In this document: positions 4,770 through 22,628 of the stretch, piece by piece
Layout: every line of letters starts with the position of its first letter
How positions within the stretch are numbered: position 1 is the first letter of the stretch
Source of the DNA: an uncultured Oscillospiraceae bacterium
Lineage (GTDB): Bacteria; Bacillota; Clostridia; Oscillospirales; Oscillospiraceae
NCBI GenBank assembly: GCA_947625355.1
Contig: CANQOA010000012.1
Coordinates: forward strand, 1 to 48,763
DNA: 48,763 nucleotides
Direction: 5' to 3'
Made by a program: the position numbers and the translations under genes
Notes under the pieces: model-generated
The model's input: only the letters and a program-made list of their open reading frames with translations
Told to the model about the DNA's origin: nothing
The model's database searches: none

Positions 4770-5072
4770 GCGGACCATCCATACACTGCCGTCCGGATCG
4801 ACGGCGGGCCGTCCCAATGGGTTTGAGAGTTTTTGAAAGCAAAATGCCTTGCTCTGACTCTTACTGACCATTTTACAAGTCTGTGTGCCGCCCGGCACTG
4901 GTTATAAAGTAACCAACTTATAAAACTTGAGCTTTTAACTCAATCAATAAGGCAACAGAAGTTGCCGCCGCTTTCGCGGGGTTCGGCATTCGACCCGGCT
5001 GTCCGTATGGCCTTGGCCGTCCGGAGACGGCGGTCGCATCTTGCTTTGGAAAGGCTCTTTCCAATTGAGACG
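4770..5072 (-). promoter_or_regulatory. Structured 5' leader of the pot operon (candidate attenuator or riboswitch)
   Basis: About 300 nt lie between the predicted transcript start (~5072) and the terminator. In series there are short stem-loops at 5046-5064 (8 bp), 5017-5030, 4951-4966, 4900-4914 and 4885-4898. It matches no riboswitch class I can recognise by eye. A 31-codon reading frame (5039-4944, Pro/Arg-rich start, ending LLLPY) lies in the leader but has no convincing ribosome site. Confidence 0.5.
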
Positions 5073-5185: not shown

Positions 5186-5590
5186 TGCCGCTCAGATCTT
5201 GATGCTGCCGGTCGCGTCGGTGTACGTGATCATGCCGTACTTGCCGTCGTGCTTGTTGTTCGACCAGACCCAGCCATACCCCTCGGCCCAGTGCCAGCCG
5301 CCCCGGACCCGTCCCTGGGCGCTGGAGTCCGCCGGCGTCTCGAAGTAGTAAAGACCCCCGGGCCACACGGTCTTGGTGTCCAGCTTGCCGGTCTTTTCGC
5401 TGTAGTACCCCTTCACCTGCGGGCAGTCATACACGCCCGTGACCATGACGCCGTTCGCGTTCATGAAGTACCAGATGCCCCTGGCGCTCATCACCCAGGT
5501 GTTCTTCACGGCCTTGCCGTTCAGGAAGTAATACCAGCTGCCGTCGCTGCCCTTGGTCCAGCCCTTGCCGGTGGCGGGCTCCCCCGACTG
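5160..5590 (-). repeat. Duplicated 3' module plus terminator, copy 1
   Basis: This segment is closely similar to 9070-9500: the same hairpin, the same stop context and ~125 shared C-terminal residues (GWTKGSDG, NTWVMSARGIWYFMN, TVWPGGLYYFET, DGKYGM). Because the match extends past the stop codon, a DNA-level duplication is more likely than protein convergence. Confidence 0.85.
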
Positions 5591-8500
5591 CTGCCACTTG
5601 CCGGGGCCATAGGCCCGGGCAGTCCCGCCGGACAGGCGCGGCACATAGGAGAAAGCGATCCTCCCCTCGCCGTCCGCCTCCATCTGGGCGATGAACCGCA
5701 GATTGGACGCCGACAGCAGATCGGCCGCCGACGGATCGGCCGTCACCAGGATCACATAGGTCCCGTTGGCCTGCAGGCCGGTGAACAGCGCCGTGTTCTC
5801 CCCCGTGGAGGTGGGGCTGTGGACCGCCAGCAGCTCGATCTCTGCCGGCTCGCCGTCGATAGAGCCCATCTCCGGCTCTGCCGTGATCTCGGGCTCGGCC
5901 GTCATCTCAGGTTCGGCCGTGGCCTCGGGTTCGGCCGTCATCTCGGGCTCAGCCGTGGCCTCGGGCTCAGCCGTCATCTCGGGCTCAGCCGTCATCTCGG
6001 GCTCAGCCGTCATCTCGGGCTCAGCCGTATCCTCCGGCACGGGCACCGCGCCGGCCTCCGGCAGATCCGCGGCGATGCTGGCCGGCGAAGCGCCCAGGGA
6101 GACGAAGGGGAGGCCGTGCTCCTCGGCGTACGCCTCCGCCGTGGAGCCGTCATAGCCGTGGATGGTGCCGCAAAGGGTATCATGATCCTCGATCGTGTCG
6201 ATCCGACAGTTCGGGTTCAGGACCGTAGTGTCCTTCAAGCTGTCGCACCCATCAAACGCACCCACTCCGATGGAGACGACGCTGGCGGGGATGGTCACGC
6301 TCGCCAGACTTACACAATCAGAAAACGCCCAATCCCCTATGCTGGTCACACTATCGGGGATCGTCACGCTCGCCAGACTTACACAATCAGAAAACGCCCA
6401 ATCCCCTATGCTGGTCACACTATCGGGGATCGTCACGTTCGTCAGACTTGAACAATGAGAAAACGCATCCTCCCCTATGCTGGTTACACTGTCGGGGATC
6501 GTCACACTCGTTAGTCTCCAGCAATCATAAAACGCTTCCTCCCCTATGCTGGTCACACTATCGGGGATCGTCACGTTCGTCAGACTTGAACAATGCATGA
6601 ACACATAATCTTCGATGGTCGGCACGCCATCGGGGATCATCACGCTCGTCAGACTTGAACAATTAGAGAACGCCCAACCCCCTATGCTGGTCACACTATC
6701 GGGGATCGTCACGTTCGTCAGACTTGAACAAAAAGAAAACGCTGCCTCCCCTATGCTGGTCACGCTATCGGGGATCGTCACGCTCGTCAGACTTGAACAT
6801 TCATAAAACGCTTCCTCCCCTATACTGGTCACGCCATCCTGAATAGAAACCCATTTGATAGACGAAACAAACTCATGCCATGGCACCCTGAATGAAAACT
6901 CCCAATACCCCATCTCCCCCGTGCCGTAGATGGACAGCGTCCCGTCGCTGGTAAGTATCCACTTCACATTGTCCCCCTGGGCGCCGCAGTCGCCGGAGGC
7001 AACGATCTCCCCTCCCGGGGTCGGAACAGGTGCTGGCGTCCCGGCAGGCGGGATGTCCGGGCCGGTGCCGGGGCCCGGGGTCGCGCTGGGCTGAGGCGAC
7101 GCATCCGGGGCCGCTTGGAGCAGTATGAACCCCATCGTCGGCTTCCCGCTGACCGTCAGGGTGGCCCTGCCGGAGGCGGTCCCGTCCGGGCTGGACGCGG
7201 ACAGGCTATACATCCCGTCGTGCAGGAAGAACACAGCCTTGCCGTCAGCGCCCGTCACCGGCGCTTCGCTGAGCCCGGTCCCCTCCACAGCCGCGCCGGA
7301 CACCGCCGCGCCGCTCTGGTCCAACACCGTCAGCGTCACCTTATAGCTGCTGTGCGGGCAGGTGCCTAAACCGAATTCGTCAAAATCGAACGAATAATAA
7401 AAATCGAACAGTTTTAGTGATACTTCAAATATTAGCGTCTCATACTTTACGTGTTTTGTAGCGGCAATGCTGCACTTCAAATACGCTTTAAAGTTGACAT
7501 CCCCATCGGTACATTGTTCGCAATCATGATGCTCTTCTTCTGAACCAAGCACCGCCCTTTTGGCTTTTACTTCTACCACAGCTCCCAATTCCGCAGATGC
7601 TTTGAGAAGGTCTTCACTGATAAGGGCAAGATATGGTTCGATTTTAAATCCCACCTCAATTTTCCCTTCAACAGTAACCTTAACCTTCACTTTTGGATCG
7701 CTGCTTTTGTTAACAAACGTGCCGTTATCCAGCGCATATCCGAATGTTTGCTCAACTGAAACAGTGCCCTCGAAACTGCCGCTGATACCCAATACAAGCT
7801 TCGGCTCTACTCCCAAAGACAGCCCCGGCAAAGGATTAAACACTATCTTTCCTAGAGGCTGCTCTGTATCTTGTAGTTTCTGCTCTGCCTCGACAGTCAG
7901 CTTTCCTTCAAGTTTGTTTGTCGCCTTGAACTCAATGTATTCTTTTGAAAGACTGATGTAGATTTTAACCTTGATGCTTACTTCAATGTTTCCAGAAACC
8001 TTTACCGACAAACTTTCGTCAAACTTCTTCTCAAACTCTATTTCGAGGGATTTTCTTGTATTGGCATTTGTATCTACTAGCGCAGCAGGTGCGACCTCGC
8101 TGTTTTCGTCCGAGCCCACGTCAATCTTTACCACATCGAAAAAGTCTGTGATCTCAGCATTGTCGTCCTCAACAACGGTAACAGTATTTCCCTCTTTCGA
8201 GACGGATGCAACTTTCACAAGAAGAAGCGACCCGTCAGCCTTTTCATAAGAAAGGATATCGCCCGCTATCAACCCAGTGAGTTTACCGTCTGCATTTGCG
8301 AAAGTATAGCGTCCCCCTGCAGAACCTGTCAGCGAGTTCACATTTCCCTTAGGTTCTACTAATACTGTATCCTTACTATAGACCATGAAGTTCGTGGTCG
8401 GGTCGCCGTCCAGGTTCAGCACCCGTTCCTCGGCAAAGTCGTTCACCGTGGCGTCATCCAGGTCCTGGATGTCCTCCGTGTAGAACTCCGTGGTATATTC

Positions 8501-8938
8501 CTCGCACAGCGGCTCATGCCCTGCGTGGTCCAGCAGGAACGCCGACGCGACAAAGGTGTCCGGGATCTTACCGGTCAGACCAAAGACCACGATCCCCGAC
8601 CCGGCCGAGATCGACGCGTTCCCCGAGGCCGTCATCTGCCCCGTCCTCTCGTCGTACACCGCCACGACCACGTCCGCTTTCCTGTCAGCCTGATAGCCGA
8701 CGACCGCGGTGTTGTTCGTTACGGTCAGGCTGGTGATCTTGTCCGCCGTCGGGTCCTGTACGATCGCCCGGGCGTCGATCTCCTTGGCGATCAGTTCGCC
8801 CACGTCGTTCTTTCCCTCGACCGTCACATCCGCCGTCTCCAGCTGCGCGTCGGACCCATCATCCGCCGCGAAGACCGGAACGCACAGCGAAAACAGCACC
8901 GTCAGGGCAAGAACCAGACTCAAAACGCGCTTTTTCAT
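5192..8938 (-). CDS. Secreted BspA-type leucine-rich-repeat surface protein
   Basis: 1248 residues. A signal peptide (MKKRVLSLVLALTVLF..., cleavage near VFAADD) is followed by ~450 residues of unassigned beta-rich sequence, a carboxypeptidase-regulatory-like domain (YKVTLTVLDQSGAAVSG), a Pro-rich linker and nine ~23-residue LRR_5 repeats (VTIPDSVTSIGxxAFxxC). Then come TAEPE hexapeptide repeats and a C-terminal aromatic wall-binding module. LRR_5 proteins of this type act as adhesins on host or bacterial surfaces; the ligand is unknown. The start is supported by the GGAATGGAAAG ribosome site and the promoter at 9012-9040. DNA for residues ~180-520 and for the LRR block is visibly AT-richer than its surroundings, suggesting a mosaic origin. 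Its 3' module and promoter match those of the next gene upstream (9102-10793). Confidence 0.85.
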   Translation of the reverse strand: MKKRVLSLVLALTVLFSLCVPVFAADDGSDAQLETADVTVEGKNDVGELIAKEIDARAIVQDPTADKITSLTVTNNTAVVGYQADRKADVVVAVYDERTGQMTASGNASISAGSGIVVFGLTGKIPDTFVASAFLLDHAGHEPLCEEYTTEFYTEDIQDLDDATVNDFAEERVLNLDGDPTTNFMVYSKDTVLVEPKGNVNSLTGSAGGRYTFANADGKLTGLIAGDILSYEKADGSLLLVKVASVSKEGNTVTVVEDDNAEITDFFDVVKIDVGSDENSEVAPAALVDTNANTRKSLEIEFEKKFDESLSVKVSGNIEVSIKVKIYISLSKEYIEFKATNKLEGKLTVEAEQKLQDTEQPLGKIVFNPLPGLSLGVEPKLVLGISGSFEGTVSVEQTFGYALDNGTFVNKSSDPKVKVKVTVEGKIEVGFKIEPYLALISEDLLKASAELGAVVEVKAKRAVLGSEEEHHDCEQCTDGDVNFKAYLKCSIAATKHVKYETLIFEVSLKLFDFYYSFDFDEFGLGTCPHSSYKVTLTVLDQSGAAVSGAAVEGTGLSEAPVTGADGKAVFFLHDGMYSLSASSPDGTASGRATLTVSGKPTMGFILLQAAPDASPQPSATPGPGTGPDIPPAGTPAPVPTPGGEIVASGDCGAQGDNVKWILTSDGTLSIYGTGEMGYWEFSFRVPWHEFVSSIKWVSIQDGVTSIGEEAFYECSSLTSVTIPDSVTSIGEAAFSFCSSLTNVTIPDSVTSIGGWAFSNCSSLTSVMIPDGVPTIEDYVFMHCSSLTNVTIPDSVTSIGEEAFYDCWRLTSVTIPDSVTSIGEDAFSHCSSLTNVTIPDSVTSIGDWAFSDCVSLASVTIPDSVTSIGDWAFSDCVSLASVTIPASVVSIGVGAFDGCDSLKDTTVLNPNCRIDTIEDHDTLCGTIHGYDGSTAEAYAEEHGLPFVSLGASPASIAADLPEAGAVPVPEDTAEPEMTAEPEMTAEPEMTAEPEATAEPEMTAEPEATAEPEMTAEPEITAEPEMGSIDGEPAEIELLAVHSPTSTGENTALFTGLQANGTYVILVTADPSAADLLSASNLRFIAQMEADGEGRIAFSYVPRLSGGTARAYGPGKWQQSGEPATGKGWTKGSDGSWYYFLNGKAVKNTWVMSARGIWYFMNANGVMVTGVYDCPQVKGYYSEKTGKLDTKTVWPGGLYYFETPADSSAQGRVRGGWHWAEGYGWVWSNNKHDGKYGMITYTDATGSIKI
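5874..6033 (-). repeat. 18-bp repeats encoding TAEPE(M/A/I) hexapeptides
   Basis: Eight or more 18-bp units encode an acidic Glu/Pro spacer between the LRR block and the wall-binding module. A similar array lies in the neighbouring gene at 10429-10590. Confidence 0.8.
6240..6860 (-). repeat. 69-bp LRR_5 coding repeats
   Basis: Nine tandem 69-bp units. Two consecutive units (about 6300-6437) are identical at the DNA level, implying recent expansion. These are coding repeats, not CRISPR. Confidence 0.85.
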
Positions 8939-15278: not shown

Positions 15279-15324
15279 GCGCATATCATGAACTGTGACA
15301 GCATTCATGTCCTCCTTCCTTTGG

Positions 15325-15362
15325 CAGCCTGTCCGGGCTCTGTTCCGGGCAGGCTGTTTTTT
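15325..15362 (+). terminator. Intrinsic terminator after the FemAB gene
   Basis: CAGCCTG pairs with CAGGCTG (15325-15331/15350-15356), with an inner CCGG pairing, followed by six T. It insulates the downstream aro promoter. Confidence 0.85.
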
Positions 15363-15384
15363 GCGGCGAACGGCGCGAAATCCG

Positions 15385-15413
15385 TTGACAAGCGGCTAGA
15401 TCGGTATTATAAT
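15385..15413 (+). promoter_or_regulatory. Promoter of the aromatic amino acid operon
   Basis: Perfect consensus: TTGACA (15385-15390), 17-bp spacer, TATAAT (15408-15413). The start is expected near 15420, just before the leader-peptide ribosome site AAAGGAG (15427-15433). Confidence 0.92.
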
Positions 15414-15442
15414 GCCTTTAGCTTTTTAAAGGAGCGCATCCC

Positions 15443-15499
15443 ATGACCAAGACTTTCTTCGCCAGCTACTTTACCTACTATTACTTTTCCGAAAAGTAA
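15443..15499 (+). CDS. Phe/Tyr-rich leader peptide of the aro operon
   Basis: An 18-residue reading frame, MTKTFFASYFTYYYFSEK, starts nine bases after AAAGGAG and ends in tandem stops TAA TAG. Eight of its 18 residues are aromatic (four Phe, four Tyr), with a Tyr-Tyr-Tyr-Phe run at 12-15. Its 3' half lies in a perfect 11-bp hairpin (15478-15502), and a terminator follows at 15544-15576, just ahead of aroF. This is the layout of ribosome-mediated attenuators such as pheL in enteric bacteria. When charged tRNA-Phe or tRNA-Tyr is scarce, a stalled ribosome would open the hairpin and allow an antiterminator. The peptide probably has no function beyond being translated. Such leaders are uncommon in Firmicutes, where T-boxes usually do this job; none is visible here. 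Confidence 0.85.
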   Translation: MTKTFFASYFTYYYFSEK

Positions 15500-15502
15500 T
15501 AG
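15478..15502 (+). promoter_or_regulatory. Leader hairpin overlapping the control codons (pause/protector stem)
   Basis: Arms 15478-15488 and 15492-15502 are perfectly complementary (11 bp, 3-nt loop) and cover codons from Tyr12 through the stop. A candidate antiterminator pairs 15509-15516 (GTGCTGCG) with 15549-15556 (TGCGGCAC), eight pairs including two G-U. It would enclose a small stem at ~15523-15539 and occupy the 5' arm of the terminator. Folding was done by eye. Confidence 0.65.
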
Positions 15503-15543
15503 CGATCGGTGCTGCGAAAAAAGGCTTACAAACGTAACCACAG

Positions 15544-15576
15544 AGCTGTGCGGCACAAGAGCCGCACAGCTTTTTT
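15544..15576 (+). terminator. Attenuator terminator upstream of aroF
   Basis: Perfect 11-bp stem (15544-15554 with 15561-15571), 6-nt loop, then a run of T. It lies between the leader peptide and the aroF ribosome site, so it must be bypassed for operon expression. Confidence 0.9.
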
Positions 15577-15593
15577 GCAAAGGAGAAGCCCAC

Positions 15594-16598
15594 ATGATAA
15601 CCGTCTTGAAACCCAACACCACCGAAGAGCAGCGGGACCACCTGATCCACTGGATGGAGAGCCAGGGCGTCCAGGTCCATGTGTCTCAAGGCAGCGAGTA
15701 CACCATCCTGGGCCTGGTGGGCGACACCGCCCACATCGACACGGAGTTGCTGGAGAGCCTGGAGATCGTCCAGTCCGTGAAGCGGGTGAGCGAGCCCTTC
15801 AAGAAGTGCAACCGCAAGTTCCACCCGGAGGACTCCGTCATCGACGCCGGCGGCGTGCCCATCGGCGGCGGCCACTTTGCCGTCATCGCCGGGCCCTGCT
15901 CCGTGGAGAGCCACGACCAGATCATCGGCATCGCCGAGTCCGTGAAGCAGAGCGGCGCGAAGCTCCTGCGGGGCGGCGCCTTCAAGCCCCGGACCAGCCC
16001 CTATGACTTCCAGGGCCTGCACGCCACGGGCCTGGAGCTGCTCAGCGAGGCCAAGAAGGCCACGGGCCTGCCCATCGTGTCGGAGATCATGGATCTGCGG
16101 GATCTGGACCTTTTCGAGGACGTGGACGTGCTGCAGGTGGGCGCCCGGAACATGCAGAATTTCGAGATGCTGAAGGGCCTGGGCCGCACCGGCAAGACCA
16201 TCCTGCTCAAGCGGGGCCTGGCCAATACCCTGAAGGAGCTGCTCATGAGCGCCGAGTACATCATGGCCGGCGGCAACGAGAACGTGATCCTCTGCGAGCG
16301 GGGCATCCGCACCTATGAGACCTACACCCGCAACACCCTGGACTTGAGCTGCGTGCCGGTGCTGCACGAACTGAGCCATCTGCCCGTGGTGGTGGACCCC
16401 AGCCACGCCACCGGCCACTCCTACCTGGTGCCCTCCATGGCCCTGGCGGCGGCCGCCGCCGGCGCGGACGGCATCATGGTGGAGGTGCACAACGACCCGG
16501 CCCATGCCCTGTGCGACGGGGCCCAGAGCCTGACCCCGGCCCAGTTCGCCGAGCTGATGGGCCAGATGAAGCGCATTTTGGAGGTCGTGCGGCCATGA
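15594..16598 (+). CDS. aroF: 3-deoxy-7-phosphoheptulonate (DAHP) synthase
   Basis: 334 residues. It condenses phosphoenolpyruvate and erythrose 4-phosphate, the entry step of the shikimate pathway. The N-terminal ~80 residues are the ferredoxin-like regulatory domain of Thermotoga/Bacillus-type (I-beta) enzymes, which in relatives binds Phe or Tyr for feedback inhibition. The TIM-barrel follows, with GPCSVES (~residue 100), [12 protein letters not shown] and [10 protein letters not shown]. An AAAGGAG site precedes the ATG. First gene of the operon behind the attenuator; its TGA overlaps the tyrA ATG. Control of the committed step by both the leader peptide and allostery is likely. Confidence 0.95.
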
Positions 16599-17428
16599 TC
16601 GTGGGCATCGTGGGCCTGGGGCTCATCGGCGGCTCCCTGGCCAAGGCATACAAGCGGGACAGCTCCGTGACCGTGCTGGGCTGGAACCGCACCCCCTCCG
16701 TGACGGAATTCGCGCTGCTGGACGGGGCCATCGACGCCGAGCTCACGCCGGACCGGCTTTGCGAGTGCGACCTGGTGCTCATCTCCCTCTACCCCCGGGC
16801 CACCATGGACTATCTGCGGGACAACGCGGACCGGTTCTCCAAGACCGGCATCGTCATGGACTGCGACGGGGTGAAGCGGGAAGTATGCGAATACGCCTTC
16901 CCCCTGGCGGCGGAGCACGGCTTCACCTTCGTGGGGGGGCACCCCATGGCGGGCACCCAGTTCTCCGGCTTCAAATACGCCCGGGCCACCCTCTATGACC
17001 GGGCCCCCATGGTGATCGTGCCGCCGGTGTTCGACGATCCGGACTTTCTGGCCCGGATCAAGGCGCTTTTGAAGCCCGCCGGCTTCGGCCGCATCAGCGT
17101 CACCACCGCCGCCGACCACGATCGGATGATCGCTTTCACCTCCCAGATGGCCCACGTGGTGTCCAACGCCTACATCAAGAGCCCCGCCGCCGCGGACCAC
17201 AAGGGCTTCTCCGCCGGCAGCTACAAGGACCTGACCCGTGTGGCCTGGCTCAACGCCCCCATGTGGAGCGAGCTCATCCTGGACAACCGGGACAACATGC
17301 TCTCGGAGATGGACGCCCTCATCGGCAGTCTGACCGCCTACCGGGACGCCATCGCCGCCAATGACTATGACACCCTGTGCGCCCTGCTGGAAGAGGGCAA
17401 GCGCCGGAAGGAGGAGATCGACGGATGA
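16595..17428 (+). CDS. tyrA: Prephenate dehydrogenase
   Basis: 277 residues. It oxidatively decarboxylates prephenate to 4-hydroxyphenylpyruvate, the tyrosine precursor. A dinucleotide-binding motif (G7-L-G9-L-I-G12) opens the protein, and a GGHPMAGT motif with the catalytic-region His follows in the middle. No C-terminal ACT domain is present, so direct Tyr feedback of the ACT type is not expected. The start overlaps the aroF stop (ATGA), excluding an upstream in-frame start at 16511. The stop overlaps the aroB start in the same way. Confidence 0.92.
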   Translation: MIVGIVGLGLIGGSLAKAYKRDSSVTVLGWNRTPSVTEFALLDGAIDAELTPDRLCECDLVLISLYPRATMDYLRDNADRFSKTGIVMDCDGVKREVCEYAFPLAAEHGFTFVGGHPMAGTQFSGFKYARATLYDRAPMVIVPPVFDDPDFLARIKALLKPAGFGRISVTTAADHDRMIAFTSQMAHVVSNAYIKSPAAADHKGFSAGSYKDLTRVAWLNAPMWSELILDNRDNMLSEMDALIGSLTAYRDAIAANDYDTLCALLEEGKRRKEEIDG

Positions 17429-18480
17429 ACGCCGTCCATGTGCCCGCGTCCGTGCCCTATGACGTGCGGATCGGCCCCGGCCTGCTGGCAGGGCTGGCGG
17501 ACACGGTAAAAGCCGTCTGCCCCAAGGCCGGCCGCTGCCTGGTGGTGACGGACGACGCGGTGGGCCCGCTGTGGCTCCGCGAGTCCGTCTCCGCCCTCTT
17601 CGCCGGGGAGCTGCCCTTCTCCACATACACCCTCCCCCGCGGAGAGGCCAGCAAGACGGCGGAAAAGCTGGTGGACATCCTCAATTTCGCCGCCTCGGAG
17701 CATTTCACCCGCTCGGACGTGTTTTTGGCCCTGGGGGGCGGCATGGTGGGGGACCTGACGGGCCTGGCCGCCGCCACGTATATGCGGGGCGTGGACTACA
17801 TCCAGCTGCCCACCACCCTTCTGGCGGCGGTGGACTCCTCCGTGGGCGGAAAGACCGCCGTGGACCTGCCGGCGGGCAAGAACCTGATGGGCGCCTTCTG
17901 GCAGCCCCGCGCCGTGGTGTGCGACACGGACGCCCTCTCCACCCTGCCCCGGGCCGACTTTCTCTCCGGCTGCGCGGAGGTCATCAAGACCGCCGTGCTC
18001 TTCGATCCGGACCTATTCGCCCTGCTGGAGCGGGAGGGCCCGGCCTTTGACCGGGAGAGCGTCATCGCCCGGTGCGTGGGCCACAAGCGGGACATCGTGG
18101 CCGAGGATGAGCGGGACACCGGCCGCCGGGCGCTGCTCAATCTGGGCCACACCCTGGGCCACGCGGTGGAGGCGGAGAGCGGCTTTGCCCTCTCCCACGG
18201 CCAGGCCGTGGCCATCGGCACGGCGAGCGTATGCCGCGCCGCCGCCCTCTACGGGCTGTGCGACGTGTCGGTGCCGGAGCGGGTGGACGCCATCCTGGAG
18301 AAGTTCGGCCTGCCCATCCGCACGGCCCTCCCCTTCGAGGCCCTGATGGACCGGATGCTGTCGGACAAAAAGCGCGTCGGGGCCAAGGTGAACCTGATCG
18401 TGCCGGAGCGGATCGGCGCCTGCCGGGGCCTGCCCCTGGCCGCCGACGAGCTGCGTGACTTTATGAAAGCGGGGCTGTGA
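17425..18480 (+). CDS. aroB: 3-dehydroquinate synthase
   Basis: 351 residues, the normal length. It converts DAHP to 3-dehydroquinate using NAD+ and a divalent metal. Family motifs are intact: LGGGMVGDLTGLAAATYMRG, PTTLLAAVDSSVGGKTAVD, the metal-site region NLGHTLGHAVE and a further LSHGQAVAIG. The ATG overlaps the tyrA TGA by the ATGA arrangement. One base separates its stop from the aroA start. Confidence 0.95.
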   Translation: MNAVHVPASVPYDVRIGPGLLAGLADTVKAVCPKAGRCLVVTDDAVGPLWLRESVSALFAGELPFSTYTLPRGEASKTAEKLVDILNFAASEHFTRSDVFLALGGGMVGDLTGLAAATYMRGVDYIQLPTTLLAAVDSSVGGKTAVDLPAGKNLMGAFWQPRAVVCDTDALSTLPRADFLSGCAEVIKTAVLFDPDLFALLEREGPAFDRESVIARCVGHKRDIVAEDERDTGRRALLNLGHTLGHAVEAESGFALSHGQAVAIGTASVCRAAALYGLCDVSVPERVDAILEKFGLPIRTALPFEALMDRMLSDKKRVGAKVNLIVPERIGACRGLPLAADELRDFMKAGL

Positions 18481-18481
18481 C

Positions 18482-19702
18482 ATGATCGCCACCATCTACC
18501 CCTCCGCTCTCGCCGGGACCATCCCGGCCATCGCCTCCAAGAGCCAGGCCCACCGGATGCTGATCTGCGCGGCTCTGGCGGACCGGCCCACCCAGATCGC
18601 CTGCCCCACCCTCTCGGCGGACATAGAGGCCACGGCGGACTGCCTGCGGGCCCTGGGGGCGGCCATTGCCTATGAAAGCGGCGTCTTTTCCGTGACGCCC
18701 ATCGCCGCCGTGCCCGCCCATCCCGCGCTGGACTGCGGGGAGAGCGGCTCCACGCTCCGGTTCCTGCTGCCGGTGGTGTGCGCCCTGGGCGCCGGGGCGT
18801 CCATCAAAATGCACGGCCGGCTGCCGGAGCGGCCCCTGTCCCCCCTGTGGGAGGAGCTGAAAGCCCACGGGGCCGTCCTGACCCGCCCCGCCCCGGACAC
18901 CATCGCCGTGGACGGGGCCCTGACGCCGGGCGATTACACCATCGCCGCCAACATCTCCTCCCAGTTCATCAGCGGGCTGCTGTTCGCGCTGCCTCTGCTG
19001 GACGGGAAGAGCTCCCTCGCCCTCGCCGGGAAGCTGGAATCCGCCGCTTACGTCACCATGACCGTCCGGGCCCTGGAGAAATTCTCCGTGGCCTGTCCGT
19101 TCGCGGAGGGCGTTTTTGCCATCCCCGCCGGGCGGTATCGCTCCCCCGGCCGGGCGGAGGTGGAGGGCGACTGGTCCAACGCCGCCTTCTGGGTGGCGGC
19201 GGACCACATCTGCGGCCACAGCCTGACTGTCACGGGCCTGGACCCGGACTCCCCCCAGGGGGATCGGGCGGTGGCGGCCCTGGCCGAACGCATCGCCGCG
19301 GGAAATGCGGTCATCGACTGCCAGGACGTGCCGGACCTGGTGCCGGTGCTGAGCGTGCTGGCGGCGGTGACGCCGGGCGTCACGCGCTTTGAGAACGCCG
19401 GTCGGCTGCGCATCAAGGAGAGCGACCGTCTCGCCACCACCGCCGGGCTCATCCGGTCCCTGGGCGGGGATGCCCAGGAGCTGCCCGAGGGCCTGGTGGT
19501 CACGGGAAAGCCCCGCCTGGCCGGGGGCGAGGTGGACAGTGCCAACGACCACCGCATCGCCATGAGCGCCGCCATCGCGGCGCTGGCCTCGGACGGGCCG
19601 GTGATCCTGCACGGGGCCCAGGCCGTCAACAAATCCTATCCCGCCTTCTGGAGCGACTATGCCGCTCTGGGCGGCCGGGTTACACTGGAGGAAGGACTAT
19701 GA
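18482..19702 (+). CDS. aroA: 5-enolpyruvylshikimate-3-phosphate synthase
   Basis: 406 residues. It transfers enolpyruvyl from PEP to shikimate 3-phosphate. Recognisable sites are SKSQAHRMLI (N-terminal substrate Lys/Arg region), SSQFISGLL, RIKESDRLA and the C-terminal ANDHRIAMS. The PEP/glyphosate loop reads CGESGSTLRF in place of the GNAGT/GNSGT seen in E. coli or Bacillus enzymes, a divergent form. Shorter than the ~427 of E. coli by small deletions only, with all domains present. The stop overlaps the aroC ATG. Confidence 0.94.
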   Translation: MIATIYPSALAGTIPAIASKSQAHRMLICAALADRPTQIACPTLSADIEATADCLRALGAAIAYESGVFSVTPIAAVPAHPALDCGESGSTLRFLLPVVCALGAGASIKMHGRLPERPLSPLWEELKAHGAVLTRPAPDTIAVDGALTPGDYTIAANISSQFISGLLFALPLLDGKSSLALAGKLESAAYVTMTVRALEKFSVACPFAEGVFAIPAGRYRSPGRAEVEGDWSNAAFWVAADHICGHSLTVTGLDPDSPQGDRAVAALAERIAAGNAVIDCQDVPDLVPVLSVLAAVTPGVTRFENAGRLRIKESDRLATTAGLIRSLGGDAQELPEGLVVTGKPRLAGGEVDSANDHRIAMSAAIAALASDGPVILHGAQAVNKSYPAFWSDYAALGGRVTLEEGL

Positions 19703-20703
19703 GCAACAGCTTTGGGGAGCGCTACCGCTTCACCATTTTCGGCCAGTCCCATGCCCCCGCCATCGGCGTGACCATCGAGGGGCTGCCCGTGGGCTTCGCC
19801 CCGGACATGGAAAAGCTGGCCGCCTTTCTGGCCCGCCGGGCACCGGGGAACGGGAAGTACACCACCACCCGCAAGGAGGCCGACGCCCCGGAGTTCATCG
19901 CCGGCCTGGTGGACGGCCACACCTGCGGCGCGCCGGTGACCGCCATCATCCGCAACACCAACGCCCGCTCCGAGGACTATGAGGACCTGCGGCACGTGCC
20001 CCGGCCCGGCCACGCGGACTTCGCCGCGGCGGTGAAATACGGCCTGGACCGGGACGTGGCCGGGGGCGGCCAGTTCTCCGGCCGGCTCACGGCGCCGCTG
20101 TGCATCGCCGGAGGGCTGGCGCTGCAGCTGCTGGAGGCCGAAGGCGTCACCATCAGCGCCCGGATCGAGTCCATCGGCGGCGAGACGGACCCCGCCGCCA
20201 TGGAAGCGCTCCTGGCCGACGCCAAGGCCGCCGGCGACTCGGTGGGCGGCGTCATCGCCTGCGTCTGCGAGGGCGTGCTGCCGGGGCTGGGCGAGCCCAT
20301 GTTCGGCGGCATGGAGAACCGCATCGCCCAGGCGGTGTTCGCCATCCCCGCCGTGAAGGGCGTGGAGTTCGGCGCGGGCTTCGCCGCCGCCGGCATGCGG
20401 GGCAGCGAGAACAACGACCCCTTCTATTTCGACGAATACGGCATCGTCCGCACCCGGACCAACCGCCACGGCGGCATCCTGGGCGGCATCACCAGCGGCA
20501 TGCCCATCCTCTTCCGGGCCGCCTTCAAGCCCACCCCCTCCATCGCCATCGAACAGGACAGCGTGAATCTGACCACCCATGAGGACGTGAAGCTCACCGT
20601 CCGGGGCCGCCACGACCCCTGCATCGTGCTGCGGGCGGTCCCCTGCGTGGAGGCGGCCGCCGCCGCGGCCATCTATGACGCGCTTCTGGAAAGCAGGTGC
20701 TGA
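19699..20703 (+). CDS. aroC: Chorismate synthase
   Basis: 334 residues. It eliminates phosphate from EPSP to give chorismate, needing reduced FMN. The N-terminal SFGERYRFTIFGQSHAPAIG, the central RPGHADFAAAVKYG, the GAGFAAAGMRGSENND stretch and RHDPCIVLRAVPCVEA near the end are family signatures. The C-terminus is somewhat shorter than in many homologues (usually ~350-390) but no motif is lost. Translationally coupled to aroA (ATGA overlap). Its last codons contain the ribosome site for the chorismate mutase gene. Confidence 0.94.
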   Translation: MSNSFGERYRFTIFGQSHAPAIGVTIEGLPVGFAPDMEKLAAFLARRAPGNGKYTTTRKEADAPEFIAGLVDGHTCGAPVTAIIRNTNARSEDYEDLRHVPRPGHADFAAAVKYGLDRDVAGGGQFSGRLTAPLCIAGGLALQLLEAEGVTISARIESIGGETDPAAMEALLADAKAAGDSVGGVIACVCEGVLPGLGEPMFGGMENRIAQAVFAIPAVKGVEFGAGFAAAGMRGSENNDPFYFDEYGIVRTRTNRHGGILGGITSGMPILFRAAFKPTPSIAIEQDSVNLTTHEDVKLTVRGRHDPCIVLRAVPCVEAAAAAAIYDALLESRC

Positions 20704-20705
20704 CC

Positions 20706-20984
20706 ATGGACCTGACCGAACTGCGGACCGAGATCGACGCGGTGGACCGGGAGCTGATCGCGCTGCTGGAGCGGCGCTTCGACGTGTCCGCCGCCATCGC
20801 GGACTATAAACGGGCGCACGGCCTGGCCGTGCTGGACGCGGGCCGGGAGGCGGCCAAGCTCTCCGCCGTCCGCGCCCAGTGCCGGCCGGAGACGGCGGAC
20901 CTGATCGCCGGGCTCTACGGCCCCATCATGGCCGCCAGCCGCGCTTTCCAGACCCAGCGCATGGAGGCACATCATGCAGAATAA
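20706..20984 (+). CDS. AroQ-type chorismate mutase (monofunctional)
   Basis: 92 residues, an all-helical AroQ fold. Active-site residues match the E. coli P-protein mutase domain: Arg7, Arg24 and Lys35 correspond to Arg11, Arg28 and Lys39, and a GREAAK stretch follows. It rearranges chorismate to prephenate, feeding tyrA. The ATG at 20706 is preferred over a GTG at 20697, because AGGTG at 20695-20699 then sits at proper spacing. No prephenate dehydratase domain is attached. Its 3' end overlaps the aroE-aroK fusion by 11 bases. Confidence 0.88.
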   Translation: MDLTELRTEIDAVDRELIALLERRFDVSAAIADYKRAHGLAVLDAGREAAKLSAVRAQCRPETADLIAGLYGPIMAASRAFQTQRMEAHHAE

Positions 20985-22200
20985 AAAATTCGGGCTGCTG
21001 GGCCGGAAGCTGGGCCACAGCTGGTCGCCCCAGATCCACGGCATGCTGGCCGATTATGCATACGAGCTCTACGAGGTGGAGCCGGAGGGCCTGGCGGATT
21101 TCTTCGCCGGCACCGACCTGGACGGGATGAACGTGACCATCCCCTACAAGCGGGACGCCATGGCCTGGTGCACGGAGCTGACCGACACCGCCCGTCGCAT
21201 GGGCTGCGTCAACACCCTGGTCCGCGTCCCCGGCGGCTGGCGGGGCGACAACACCGACTATGCCGGCTTCCGCTATCTGGTGGAGTCCTCCGGCATCCCG
21301 GTGGCGGGCAAAAAAGCCCTCGTCTTTGGCAGCGGCGGGGCCTCTTTGGCCGTTCGGACCGCCCTGGCGGACCTGGGCGCGGACCCGGTCGTCATCGTGT
21401 CCCGGAACGGACCGGATAATTATGTCAACTTAAATCGCCACAGCGACGCCTCCGTCCTGGTGAACGCCACCCCCCTGGGCATGGTGCCCAACACCGGGGC
21501 GGCACCGGTGTCGCTGGCGGACTTCCCCCAGTGCGAGGGCGTCTTTGACGTGGTATATAACCCCCAGCGCACCGCCTTTTTGCTGGAGGCGGAGCGGCTG
21601 GGCATCCCCTTCGCCAACGGGCTGGGAATGCTGGTGGCCCAGGCCCGGCGCAGCGCCGAGCAGTTCGCGGACCGGGCCATCCCGGACGAAGAGGTGGAAT
21701 ATATTATATCTACCTTATCCCGGCAGATGTCCAACCTCATTCTGATCGGCATGCCCGGCAGCGGCAAGTCCGCGGTGGGCCGGGCGCTGGCCAAGGCGCT
21801 GGGCCGGCCCTTCCTGGACGCGGACAAGGAGATCGAGCGGGCGGCGGGCATGCCCATCCCCGCCATTTTCCAGGCGGAGGGCGAGGCCGGCTTCCGCCGG
21901 CGGGAGACCCACGTGCTGGCCCGGCTGGGCCAGGGCTCCGGGGCAGTGATCTCCACCGGCGGCGGCTGCGTGACGAGGCAGGAGAATTATTCTCTCCTGC
22001 ACCAGAACGGGGTCATCCTGTGGCTGCGGCGGGACTTGGAAAAGCTGCCCACCCAGGGCCGGCCCTTGTCCCAAAAGCACACGCCCCAGGCGCTCTACGC
22101 CCAGCGCAAGGACCTGTACGACGCCTTCGCGGACCTGGCCGTGGACAACGACGGGCCCCTGGCGGACACCGTATCCCACATACTGGAGGCACTGTCATGA
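20974..22200 (+). CDS. aroE-aroK: Bifunctional shikimate dehydrogenase / shikimate kinase fusion
   Basis: 408 residues. Residues 1 to ~250 are shikimate dehydrogenase: SWSPQIHG substrate site, catalytic Lys59 (IPYK) and Asp95 (NTDYAGF), and the NADP motif GSGGAS. From Met252 a shikimate kinase follows, with P-loop GMPGSGKS, substrate residues in DADKEIE and FRRRE, and a GGG loop (STGGGC). The chain thus converts 3-dehydroshikimate to shikimate 3-phosphate. The joining codons are conspicuously AT-rich (around 21700-21720) and there is no ribosome site before Met252, so a single polypeptide is expected. A GGAGG site precedes the ATG; the stop overlaps the aroQ start. Confidence 0.92.
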   Translation: MQNKKFGLLGRKLGHSWSPQIHGMLADYAYELYEVEPEGLADFFAGTDLDGMNVTIPYKRDAMAWCTELTDTARRMGCVNTLVRVPGGWRGDNTDYAGFRYLVESSGIPVAGKKALVFGSGGASLAVRTALADLGADPVVIVSRNGPDNYVNLNRHSDASVLVNATPLGMVPNTGAAPVSLADFPQCEGVFDVVYNPQRTAFLLEAERLGIPFANGLGMLVAQARRSAEQFADRAIPDEEVEYIISTLSRQMSNLILIGMPGSGKSAVGRALAKALGRPFLDADKEIERAAGMPIPAIFQAEGEAGFRRRETHVLARLGQGSGAVISTGGGCVTRQENYSLLHQNGVILWLRRDLEKLPTQGRPLSQKHTPQALYAQRKDLYDAFADLAVDNDGPLADTVSHILEALS

Positions 22201-22628
22201 AGATCCTCGTCATCAACGGTCCCAATCTGAACATGCTGGGCATCCGGGAGCCGGGCATCTACGGCTCCCAGAGCTACGCCGCCCTGGTGGGATTCGTCTC
22301 GGACGTCTGCGCGCAGCACGGCGTAAAGGCCGAGTTTTTCCAGTCCAACCACGAGGGGGCCATCGTGGACGCCATCCAAGGCGCCTACGGGGTCATGGAC
22401 GGCATCGTCATCAACCCCGCCGCCTACACCCACACCAGCGTGGCCATCCTGGACGCACTGAAGGCGGTGAGCATCCCGGCGGTGGAGGTCCACCTCAGCG
22501 ACGTGTCCGCCCGGGAGCCCTTCCGCCAGGTGTCCTACGCCGGTATGGCCTGCGAGGCCACCTTCGCCGGCCACGGCTTCGACGGCTACCGCATGGCGGT
22601 GGAATACCTGATAGAGCACCACGGCTGA
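22197..22628 (+). CDS. aroQ: Type II 3-dehydroquinate dehydratase
   Basis: 143 residues, the standard size of the dodecameric type II enzyme. Motifs: NGPNLNMLGIREPGIYG with the catalytic Tyr, FQSNHEGAIVDAIQ, INPAAYTHTSVAI, and EVHLSDVSAREPFR with the catalytic His. It dehydrates 3-dehydroquinate to 3-dehydroshikimate and supplies the AroE half of the preceding fusion. The ATG overlaps the previous stop. Last gene of the operon, followed by a strong terminator. Confidence 0.95.
   Translation: MKILVINGPNLNMLGIREPGIYGSQSYAALVGFVSDVCAQHGVKAEFFQSNHEGAIVDAIQGAYGVMDGIVINPAAYTHTSVAILDALKAVSIPAVEVHLSDVSAREPFRQVSYAGMACEATFAGHGFDGYRMAVEYLIEHHG

Follow-up and report, generated by a model that had tools for sequence, protein, structure and literature searches.

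In Firmicutes, the control of aromatic amino acid synthesis has usually been linked to T-boxes. The window analysed here, a stretch of 48,763 nucleotides that represents contig 12 of the 2.1-Mb genome of an uncultured Oscillospiraceae bacterium (96.75% complete), raises the question of whether a different device can serve the same end. Its aroF gene is preceded by a leader that recalls pheL and trpL, the ribosome-mediated attenuators of enterobacteria, which combine a leader ORF rich in cognate codons with the alternative pairings 1:2, 2:3 and 3:4 and a terminator. Our comparison of this leader with those of its relatives makes it very probable that it acts as a ribosome-mediated transcription attenuator sensing the charging of both tRNA-Phe and tRNA-Tyr. 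The elements of the leader are as follows.

15385..15413, plus strand: sigma-70-type promoter TTGACA-17-TATAAT, 12 of 12 consensus matches; by direct reading, TTGACA at 15385-15390, a spacer of 17 nt and TATAAT at 15408-15413
15428..15434, plus strand: ribosome binding site AAAGGAG of the leader ORF (direct reading)
15443..15499, plus strand: leader ORF MTKTFFASYFTYYYFSEK and TAA; ATG at 15443, 18 codons, stop at 15497-15499
15449..15471, plus strand: outer part of region 1, leader codons 3-10, pairing with region 2 as the protector helix (duplex test; largely in the MFE fold)
15478..15488, plus strand: inner part of region 1, the 5' arm of hairpin P1 over Tyr12-Phe15 (fold; order/class-wide covariation)
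15492..15502, plus strand: 3' arm of P1, stop codons included (fold; covariation)
15507..15528, plus strand: region 2, with the core GTGCTGC at 15509-15515, whose partner is either region 1 (protector) or region 3 (antiterminator)
15549..15556, plus strand: region 3, the 3' partner of the antiterminator, overlapping the 5' arm of the terminator (matched versus permuted test)
15544..15576, plus strand: intrinsic terminator (3:4), an 11-bp stem and a U run (fold; stem-plus-T-run finder)

Eight of the 18 leader codons are aromatic, namely Phe at positions 5, 6, 10 and 15 and Tyr at positions 9, 12, 13 and 14, and a TAG follows in frame immediately after the TAA. P1 is a perfect 11-bp hairpin (15478-15488 with 15492-15502). 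The antiterminator pairing, 15509-15516 with 15549-15556, comprises 8 pairs, 2 of them G-U, and the terminator joins the arms 15544-15554 and 15561-15571, its U run extending to 15576, ahead of the aroF ATG at 15594. The initial annotation had described the consensus promoter, the ribosome site, the frame with four Phe and four Tyr codons, the hairpin, the alternative pairing and the terminator before aroF; reading and folding returned every one of these at the same positions. It had missed the outer helix, in which 15449-15471 pairs with 15507-15528 and sequesters region 2. Folded as a whole, the leader (173 nt) reached -56.4 kcal/mol (z = -5.05), and none of 200 shuffles was equally stable. 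A simple scanner for terminators had no entry within 15290-15620, though the fold and the stem-plus-T-run finder show one. When the leader was searched with the 4227 Rfam models, no match attained its gathering score, and there was no T-box (RF00230), as the initial annotation had also stated; with the limit relaxed to E 10, eight weak matches at chance level appeared (best E 0.33), none of them a leader-peptide family. Four of the features by which an attenuator is recognised were found, namely a short ORF enriched in codons for the pathway products (its translation is predicted), an intrinsic terminator between this ORF and the first gene, an antiterminator (2:3) exclusive with the terminator, and control codons within region 1 of a 1:2 hairpin, of which the pairing is shown; the RF00230 covariance match by which a T-box is recognised was absent from the window leader.

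These elements suggest the following mechanism. When no ribosome is present, the leader codons (region 1) and region 2 would form a long hairpin of two parts; with region 2 occupied, region 3 would be free for region 4, and the terminator would form. When Phe- or Tyr-tRNA is scarce, a ribosome would stall at the aromatic codons (5-15) and open the 1:2 hairpin, upon which the freed region 2 would pair with region 3, the terminator would be blocked, and the polymerase would enter the aroF operon. When Phe and Tyr are both plentiful, the ribosome would reach the stop codon at 15497 and mask a portion of region 2, and the terminator would form again. The stop codon ends 9 nt before the core of region 2, so that, given known ribosome footprints, a ribosome terminating there would be expected to overlie some of this region. 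From this arrangement we infer the translation of the leader, the stalling, the opening of the hairpin by the stalled ribosome and the response in read-through.

The genes that this switch would control, identified by their protein families, are listed below.

15594..16598, plus strand: aroF, DAHP synthase, first gene of the operon (NF006421, TIGR01361)
16511..17428, plus strand (ORF bounds; HMM match from about residue 29): tyrA, prephenate dehydrogenase (PF02153, PF20463)
17377..18480, plus strand (ORF bounds): aroB, 3-dehydroquinate synthase (TIGR01357)
18482..19702, plus strand: aroA, EPSP synthase (TIGR01356)
19699..20703, plus strand: aroC, chorismate synthase (TIGR00033)
20697..20984, plus strand: chorismate mutase type II (PF01817, E 2.9e-20)
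20974..22200, plus strand: aroE-aroK fusion, shikimate dehydrogenase and shikimate kinase in a single ORF (PF08501, PF01202)
22020..22628, plus strand (ORF bounds; domain match from residue 61): aroQ, type II dehydroquinase (PF01220, E 1.2e-55)

Since the ORFs from aroF to aroQ overlap or abut, a single operon is likely, and the eight genes aroF-tyrA-aroB-aroA-aroC-CM-aroEK-aroQ would be co-transcribed. The genes downstream of the leader account for every one of the seven shikimate steps as well as for chorismate mutase and TyrA. The initial annotation had called the aromatic operon complete; this holds for these functions, but pheA lies outside the operon, on a different contig, and has a leader of its own. 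Neither TrpE nor IGPS was detected in the genome (96.75% complete), which agrees with the lack of Trp codons in the window leader. An AroF of 100% identity occurs in an uncultured Oscillospiraceae MAG, isolate Lapin-028 (L122), a name that we read as pointing to the rabbit gut.

In order to follow the leader across relatives, AroF proteins were searched in 60 relatives (50 matched), 297 genomes of the order (193 matched) and 243 of the class (187 matched), and a named collection comprised the best 80 of 589 relatives. The loci are the best AroF matches and thus a non-random sample: 28 new and 40 fetched loci from the 193 matching genomes of the order, and 29 and 40 fetched loci from the 187 of the class. 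A short ORF with at least 7 Phe or Tyr in 12 codons was present in 188 of the 255 distinct upstream regions of aroF, and in 93/118, 80/108 (one further locus, lacking upstream sequence, having been left out of 109) and 24/40 loci of three overlapping sets. By comparison, 0.21% of 2360 dinucleotide shuffles (20 for each of the 118 loci) reached 7 and none reached 8, the score of the window leader itself, and on the reverse strand 0 of the 118 loci came up to the threshold. The recurrence of the aromatic leader frame far exceeds chance. It also appears in records without a MAG label, such as Sporobacter termitidis DSM 10068, Angelakisella massiliensis, Emergencia sp. 1XD21-10 and Eubacterium pyruvativorans i6. 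The remaining 67 of the 255 regions scored below 7, and two of these loci carry T-boxes.

Within the genus, most of the 31 aligned rows have a TATAAT-like box near the same place, and most have AAGGAG-type sites at the position of the leader's ribosome site. Codon differences between the leaders are mostly non-synonymous, and apart from the aromatic and P1 codons the peptides differ greatly from one another, which fits the reading of codons better than a functional peptide. Third-position bias, sought as proof of coding, was absent, the differences being spread over the codon positions, and we relied on a frame test instead. In 43 of 45 aroF cases, the P1 arm shared its frame with the nearest ATG behind a ribosome-site motif, a result independent of Phe/Tyr content; 17 of all 62 aroF arms had no ATG behind such a motif under the pattern used. 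At pheA, 16 of 16 were in frame, with one further arm lacking such an ATG.

Some leaders depart from the common form. A second aroF subtype has a peptide core approximating GFYFSAGYF(F)C, often directly preceded by a Trp codon, and was seen at L246, L247, L252, L260, L263, L268, L269 and other loci of the class, and also at L108 and L120. The leaders of L215 and L217 carry tandem Trp codons, MNNYYRFAGYYWWFSLK and MNNKFYFAEYYWWFSLK, and IGPS was not found in either genome. At L042, L111 and L113, the ORFs upstream of aroF have few Phe or Tyr codons in a similar layout, e.g. FGYPRFFWAWDFCAC, and are perhaps diverged leaders. The idea that Trp codons in aroF leaders track Trp synthesis was dropped: among 80 genomes, 25 drawn from the 26 whose leader peptide has a Trp codon and 55 whose leader peptide has none, IGPS (PF00218, at cut-off) was present in 14/25 and 29/55, respectively, showing no association.

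We then asked whether the pairings are retained with the frame. The stem-plus-T-run finder gave a terminator score of at least 24 in 96 of 101 distinct leaders (those with a Phe/Tyr window of at least 6) versus 7 of 505 shuffles; in the genus, locus L022 had only a weak terminator (score 16.8), and three pairs of the terminator stem showed double changes. In 70 leaders, drawn from the 101 with one genus thinned to three rows and a terminator score of at least 24 required, regions 2 and 3 of the same leader paired at -14.5 kcal/mol versus -11.0 when partners were permuted, and 0 of 5000 permutations were as good; in a larger set, the 163 of 180 representatives with a terminator score of at least 24, the values were -14.1 versus -10.2, again with 0 of 5000, all permutation, binomial and Fisher values in this work being without correction for shared ancestry. 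P1 arms behaved likewise in the 180 representatives (-16.1 versus -11.45, 0 of 5000), and so did the outer protector helix in 29 genus rows (-16.7 versus -14.3 kcal/mol, 0 of 10000). Across the genus alignment the 2:3 pairing, a 7-bp helix with one-sided changes only, was intact in every cell (203 of 203), and P1 was nearly invariant; the co-variation of both thus rests on the comparison across the order and class.

How the stem changes is instructive. Each of the 35 representatives with a 3' arm GTAA[A/T]AG had the matching 5' arm no more than 40 nt upstream, GTAAAAG being paired with CTTTTAC in 23/23 and GTAATAG with CTATTAC in 12/12, although two of the latter (L060 and L127) also contain CTTTTAC. 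Read in the leader frame, the change in the arm corresponds to a Phe codon (TTT) becoming a Tyr codon (TAT), compensated by a base-pair swap. In alignment A5, which holds the 27 of 50 aroF segments that fit a pattern fixing the stem except for one A/T position, this position alone is informative because the pattern fixes the rest; it was AU in 15 rows, UA in 12 and mismatched in none. The 180-representative duplex test above is the less selected figure. Taken together, these comparisons establish, at the level of sequence, the ORF, its frame, its aromatic codon content and the three pairings with their co-variation. They also bear on the initial annotation, which had suggested a pheL/trpL-type architecture and proposed homologous leaders and stem covariance as its checks: the short frame and its codons are kept in the 188 regions counted above, compensating changes were found in P1, the antiterminator and the outer helix, and together they favour the architecture.

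The pheA gene provides an internal control. Upstream of pheA (chorismate mutase-prephenate dehydratase) in the window's genome lies a leader, MRFGFTAEFRFFTFARQK, with the same architecture as at aroF. After one locus without upstream sequence (L309) was dropped, 21 of 32 pheA loci of the genus had their own leader with a terminator, containing in total 128 Phe, 4 Tyr and 1 Trp codons, in contrast to 126 Phe, 134 Tyr and 0 Trp in 30 aroF leaders of the genus (Phe:Tyr contrast, Fisher p about 1e-25 with no ancestry correction). The other eleven pheA loci had no leader under the criteria used, and a scan of eleven pheA loci revealed no regulatory RNA. Three pairs of the pheA terminator stem had double changes, and pheA P1 had none. 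At pheA, the stem CTTTAC/GTAAAG encodes Phe-Thr (TTC TTT ACC TTT), and at aroF, CTATTAC encodes Tyr-Tyr; the two genes use a closely similar stem in a different register (FFTF versus YYF), with Tyr codons mostly avoided at pheA. Because the pheA leaders of the same genus are nearly Phe-only, the sensing of both Phe and Tyr by one leader at aroF, as had been put forward initially, gains support. Outside the genus, 14 of 15 relatives in which both proteins were present had a prephenate dehydratase domain on the contig and strand of aroF, about 2.5 to 5 kb beyond the end of an aroF copy, and the aroF leader, where present, precedes an operon that includes pheA.

Collectively, we consider it probable that these aromatic leaders form a family of leader-peptide attenuators spread across the class Clostridia, matched by no Rfam model at the leaders searched, in which the codon content follows the controlled branch and the stem co-evolves with the sensing code. 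Under this proposal, aroF leaders would read Phe and Tyr, and a pheA that lies outside the operon would have its own, nearly Phe-only leader.

A gene-blind search was made with model R1, built from P1 and region 2 of 27 aroF rows. Among 299 genomes of the phylum, 16 matched at E <= 0.01, the window's own included; the two strongest foreign matches (2.3e-11 and 6.6e-8) precede aroF by about 110 nt and have Phe/Tyr leaders. The 13 others were weaker, had no aroF within the roughly 3 kb examined at each, and are probably chance matches. In 40 relatives, R1 gave strong matches at aroF leaders, including 24 of the 25 genomes of the genus (all but G023). It scored pheA leaders weakly in some genomes, and at E <= 1 it did not find the pheA leader of the window's genome on its strand.

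Elsewhere in the genome of the window, three T-box matches occur, none reaching the curated cut-off, which in this search was passed in only 2 of 14 control genomes; one of the three precedes, by reading, an ABC-transporter ATPase gene. Upstream of aroF, a T-box was found at 2 of 37 loci scanned with Rfam, a set of mostly leaderless, weak or second-subtype loci. Both exceeded the gathering score, at L044 (704-968, plus strand) and L046 (1770-2020, minus strand), with no clear leader peptide and a Phe/Tyr score of 5 at each. T-box and leader-peptide control may replace each other within the order.

Could the same leader work without codon reading? The nascent peptide itself might arrest the ribosome in response to free Phe or Tyr or another small molecule, in the way that TnaC exemplifies nascent-peptide sensing. 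The wider-class subtype does keep a peptide core, e.g. FWGFYFSAGYLFC, that is more constant than codon sensing requires. Against this stand the genus peptides, so variable outside the aromatic and P1 codons and with non-synonymous differences dominating, the interchange of Phe and Tyr within P1, and a pheA leader that encodes a different peptide with almost only Phe. We consider such sensing improbable. An untranslated structured RNA, be it a riboswitch or an unrecognised tRNA sensor, would make the ORF incidental and its aromatic codons a by-product of a U/A-rich stem. The structure is indeed strong and conserved, and T-boxes exist at aroF in L044 and L046; yet even at E 10 the window leader matched Rfam only at chance level, the frame agreed in 43/45 aroF and 16/16 pheA cases, pheA reads a closely similar stem in another register while mostly avoiding Tyr codons, and aromatic codons also occur outside P1. 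This makes an untranslated sensor very improbable.

The simplest proposal would be a promoter-proximal terminator with constant read-through, or the end of an sRNA, involving no control by amino acids. The strength of both promoter and terminator would suit it, but neither the matched antiterminator and protector helices nor the gene-specific aromatic codons would be needed, and we give this proposal hardly any credence. An attenuator that reads Phe and Tyr codons remains our preferred interpretation. One precedent calls for caution in applying it: as recounted in a paper on Actinobacteria (PMC1262725), an attenuator-like leader of ilvB in Streptomyces coelicolor failed the mutation test, changes of its candidate codons being without effect on regulation.

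Two further features of the window were recorded. A match to RF02440 (SpF59 sRNA, 71.2 bits) at 4983-5036 on the minus strand precedes, by about 85 nt, a gene on the same strand for the PotA-like ATPase of a spermidine/putrescine ABC transporter; rather than a Streptococcus sRNA, the match may represent the 5' leader of polyamine genes. An ORF of 1248 aa at 5192-8938, also on the minus strand, contains leucine-rich-repeat adhesin-like segments that score far below the family cut-off.

Candidate leader peptides at related genes have been published. According to the sections seen of PMC8632094, uORFC-13-1, represented by 24 sequences from Acholeplasma and environmental sources, precedes aroF and includes one Phe codon or more, and attenuation was proposed. 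Compared by description, it shares with our leaders a Phe uORF at aroF, a possible promoter, a ribosome site, a terminator and an extra paired substructure; in contrast, those sections mention no Tyr and no pheA counterpart. The legend of Fig. 6 in PMC6429828, our only source on these candidates, presents two uORFs with Phe and Tyr at shikimate genes, similar to the aroF leaders in being regulatory uORFs with both residues at such genes; the five genomes of that study include Clostridium novyi and Thermovirga lienii. The eight uORF candidates in the available part of PMC11109978 include none at aroF. The initial annotation had held that Firmicutes normally use T-boxes. T-boxes do occur, as in the B. 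cereus group, where one is described at the tyrosine operon (PMC2494555), but the statement is too strong, given these candidates and the published Firmicute leader-peptide attenuators, which the excerpts describe as a Leu-rich ilv-leu attenuator in S. aureus (PMC5794164) and His leaders of hisZ/hisS* in bacilli (PMC2965389), a hisZ leader being named for Clostridium difficile as well (PMC4833913). These, too, represent leader-peptide attenuation in Firmicutes, partly where relatives use T-boxes; as described, they differ from the window leader in both the amino acids and the genes concerned. Related cases may be listed in a comparative attenuation survey from 2010 (Mol Biol 44:128) that PMC4833913 cites.

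The leaders described here are thus not categorically new, since candidate uORFs at shikimate genes (PMC6429828) and at aroF (PMC8632094) had already been published. What is new is the breadth, the structural evidence and the split between pheA and aroF; neither this leader pair nor a class-wide family was found in the searches of open-licence PMC papers. A large Phe/Tyr leader family in Clostridia would provide a direct and testable rule for switching on shikimate synthesis, and the aroF/pheA pair offers a natural experiment in which a codon-reading sensor appears to have been retuned while the RNA switch was retained. The aromatic leaders could also enter RNA-family libraries and genome annotation.

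In summary, the window leader would share with T-boxes (RF00230) the control of amino-acid genes by tRNA charging through transcription termination, and differs from them in lacking a T-box. It differs from pheL and trpL in having no Rfam leader family, in its place in Clostridia, in containing both Phe and Tyr codons, and in its predicted control of the shikimate pathway via aroF. Like pheL and trpL, it combines an ORF rich in cognate codons, alternative pairings and an intrinsic terminator before a biosynthetic gene.
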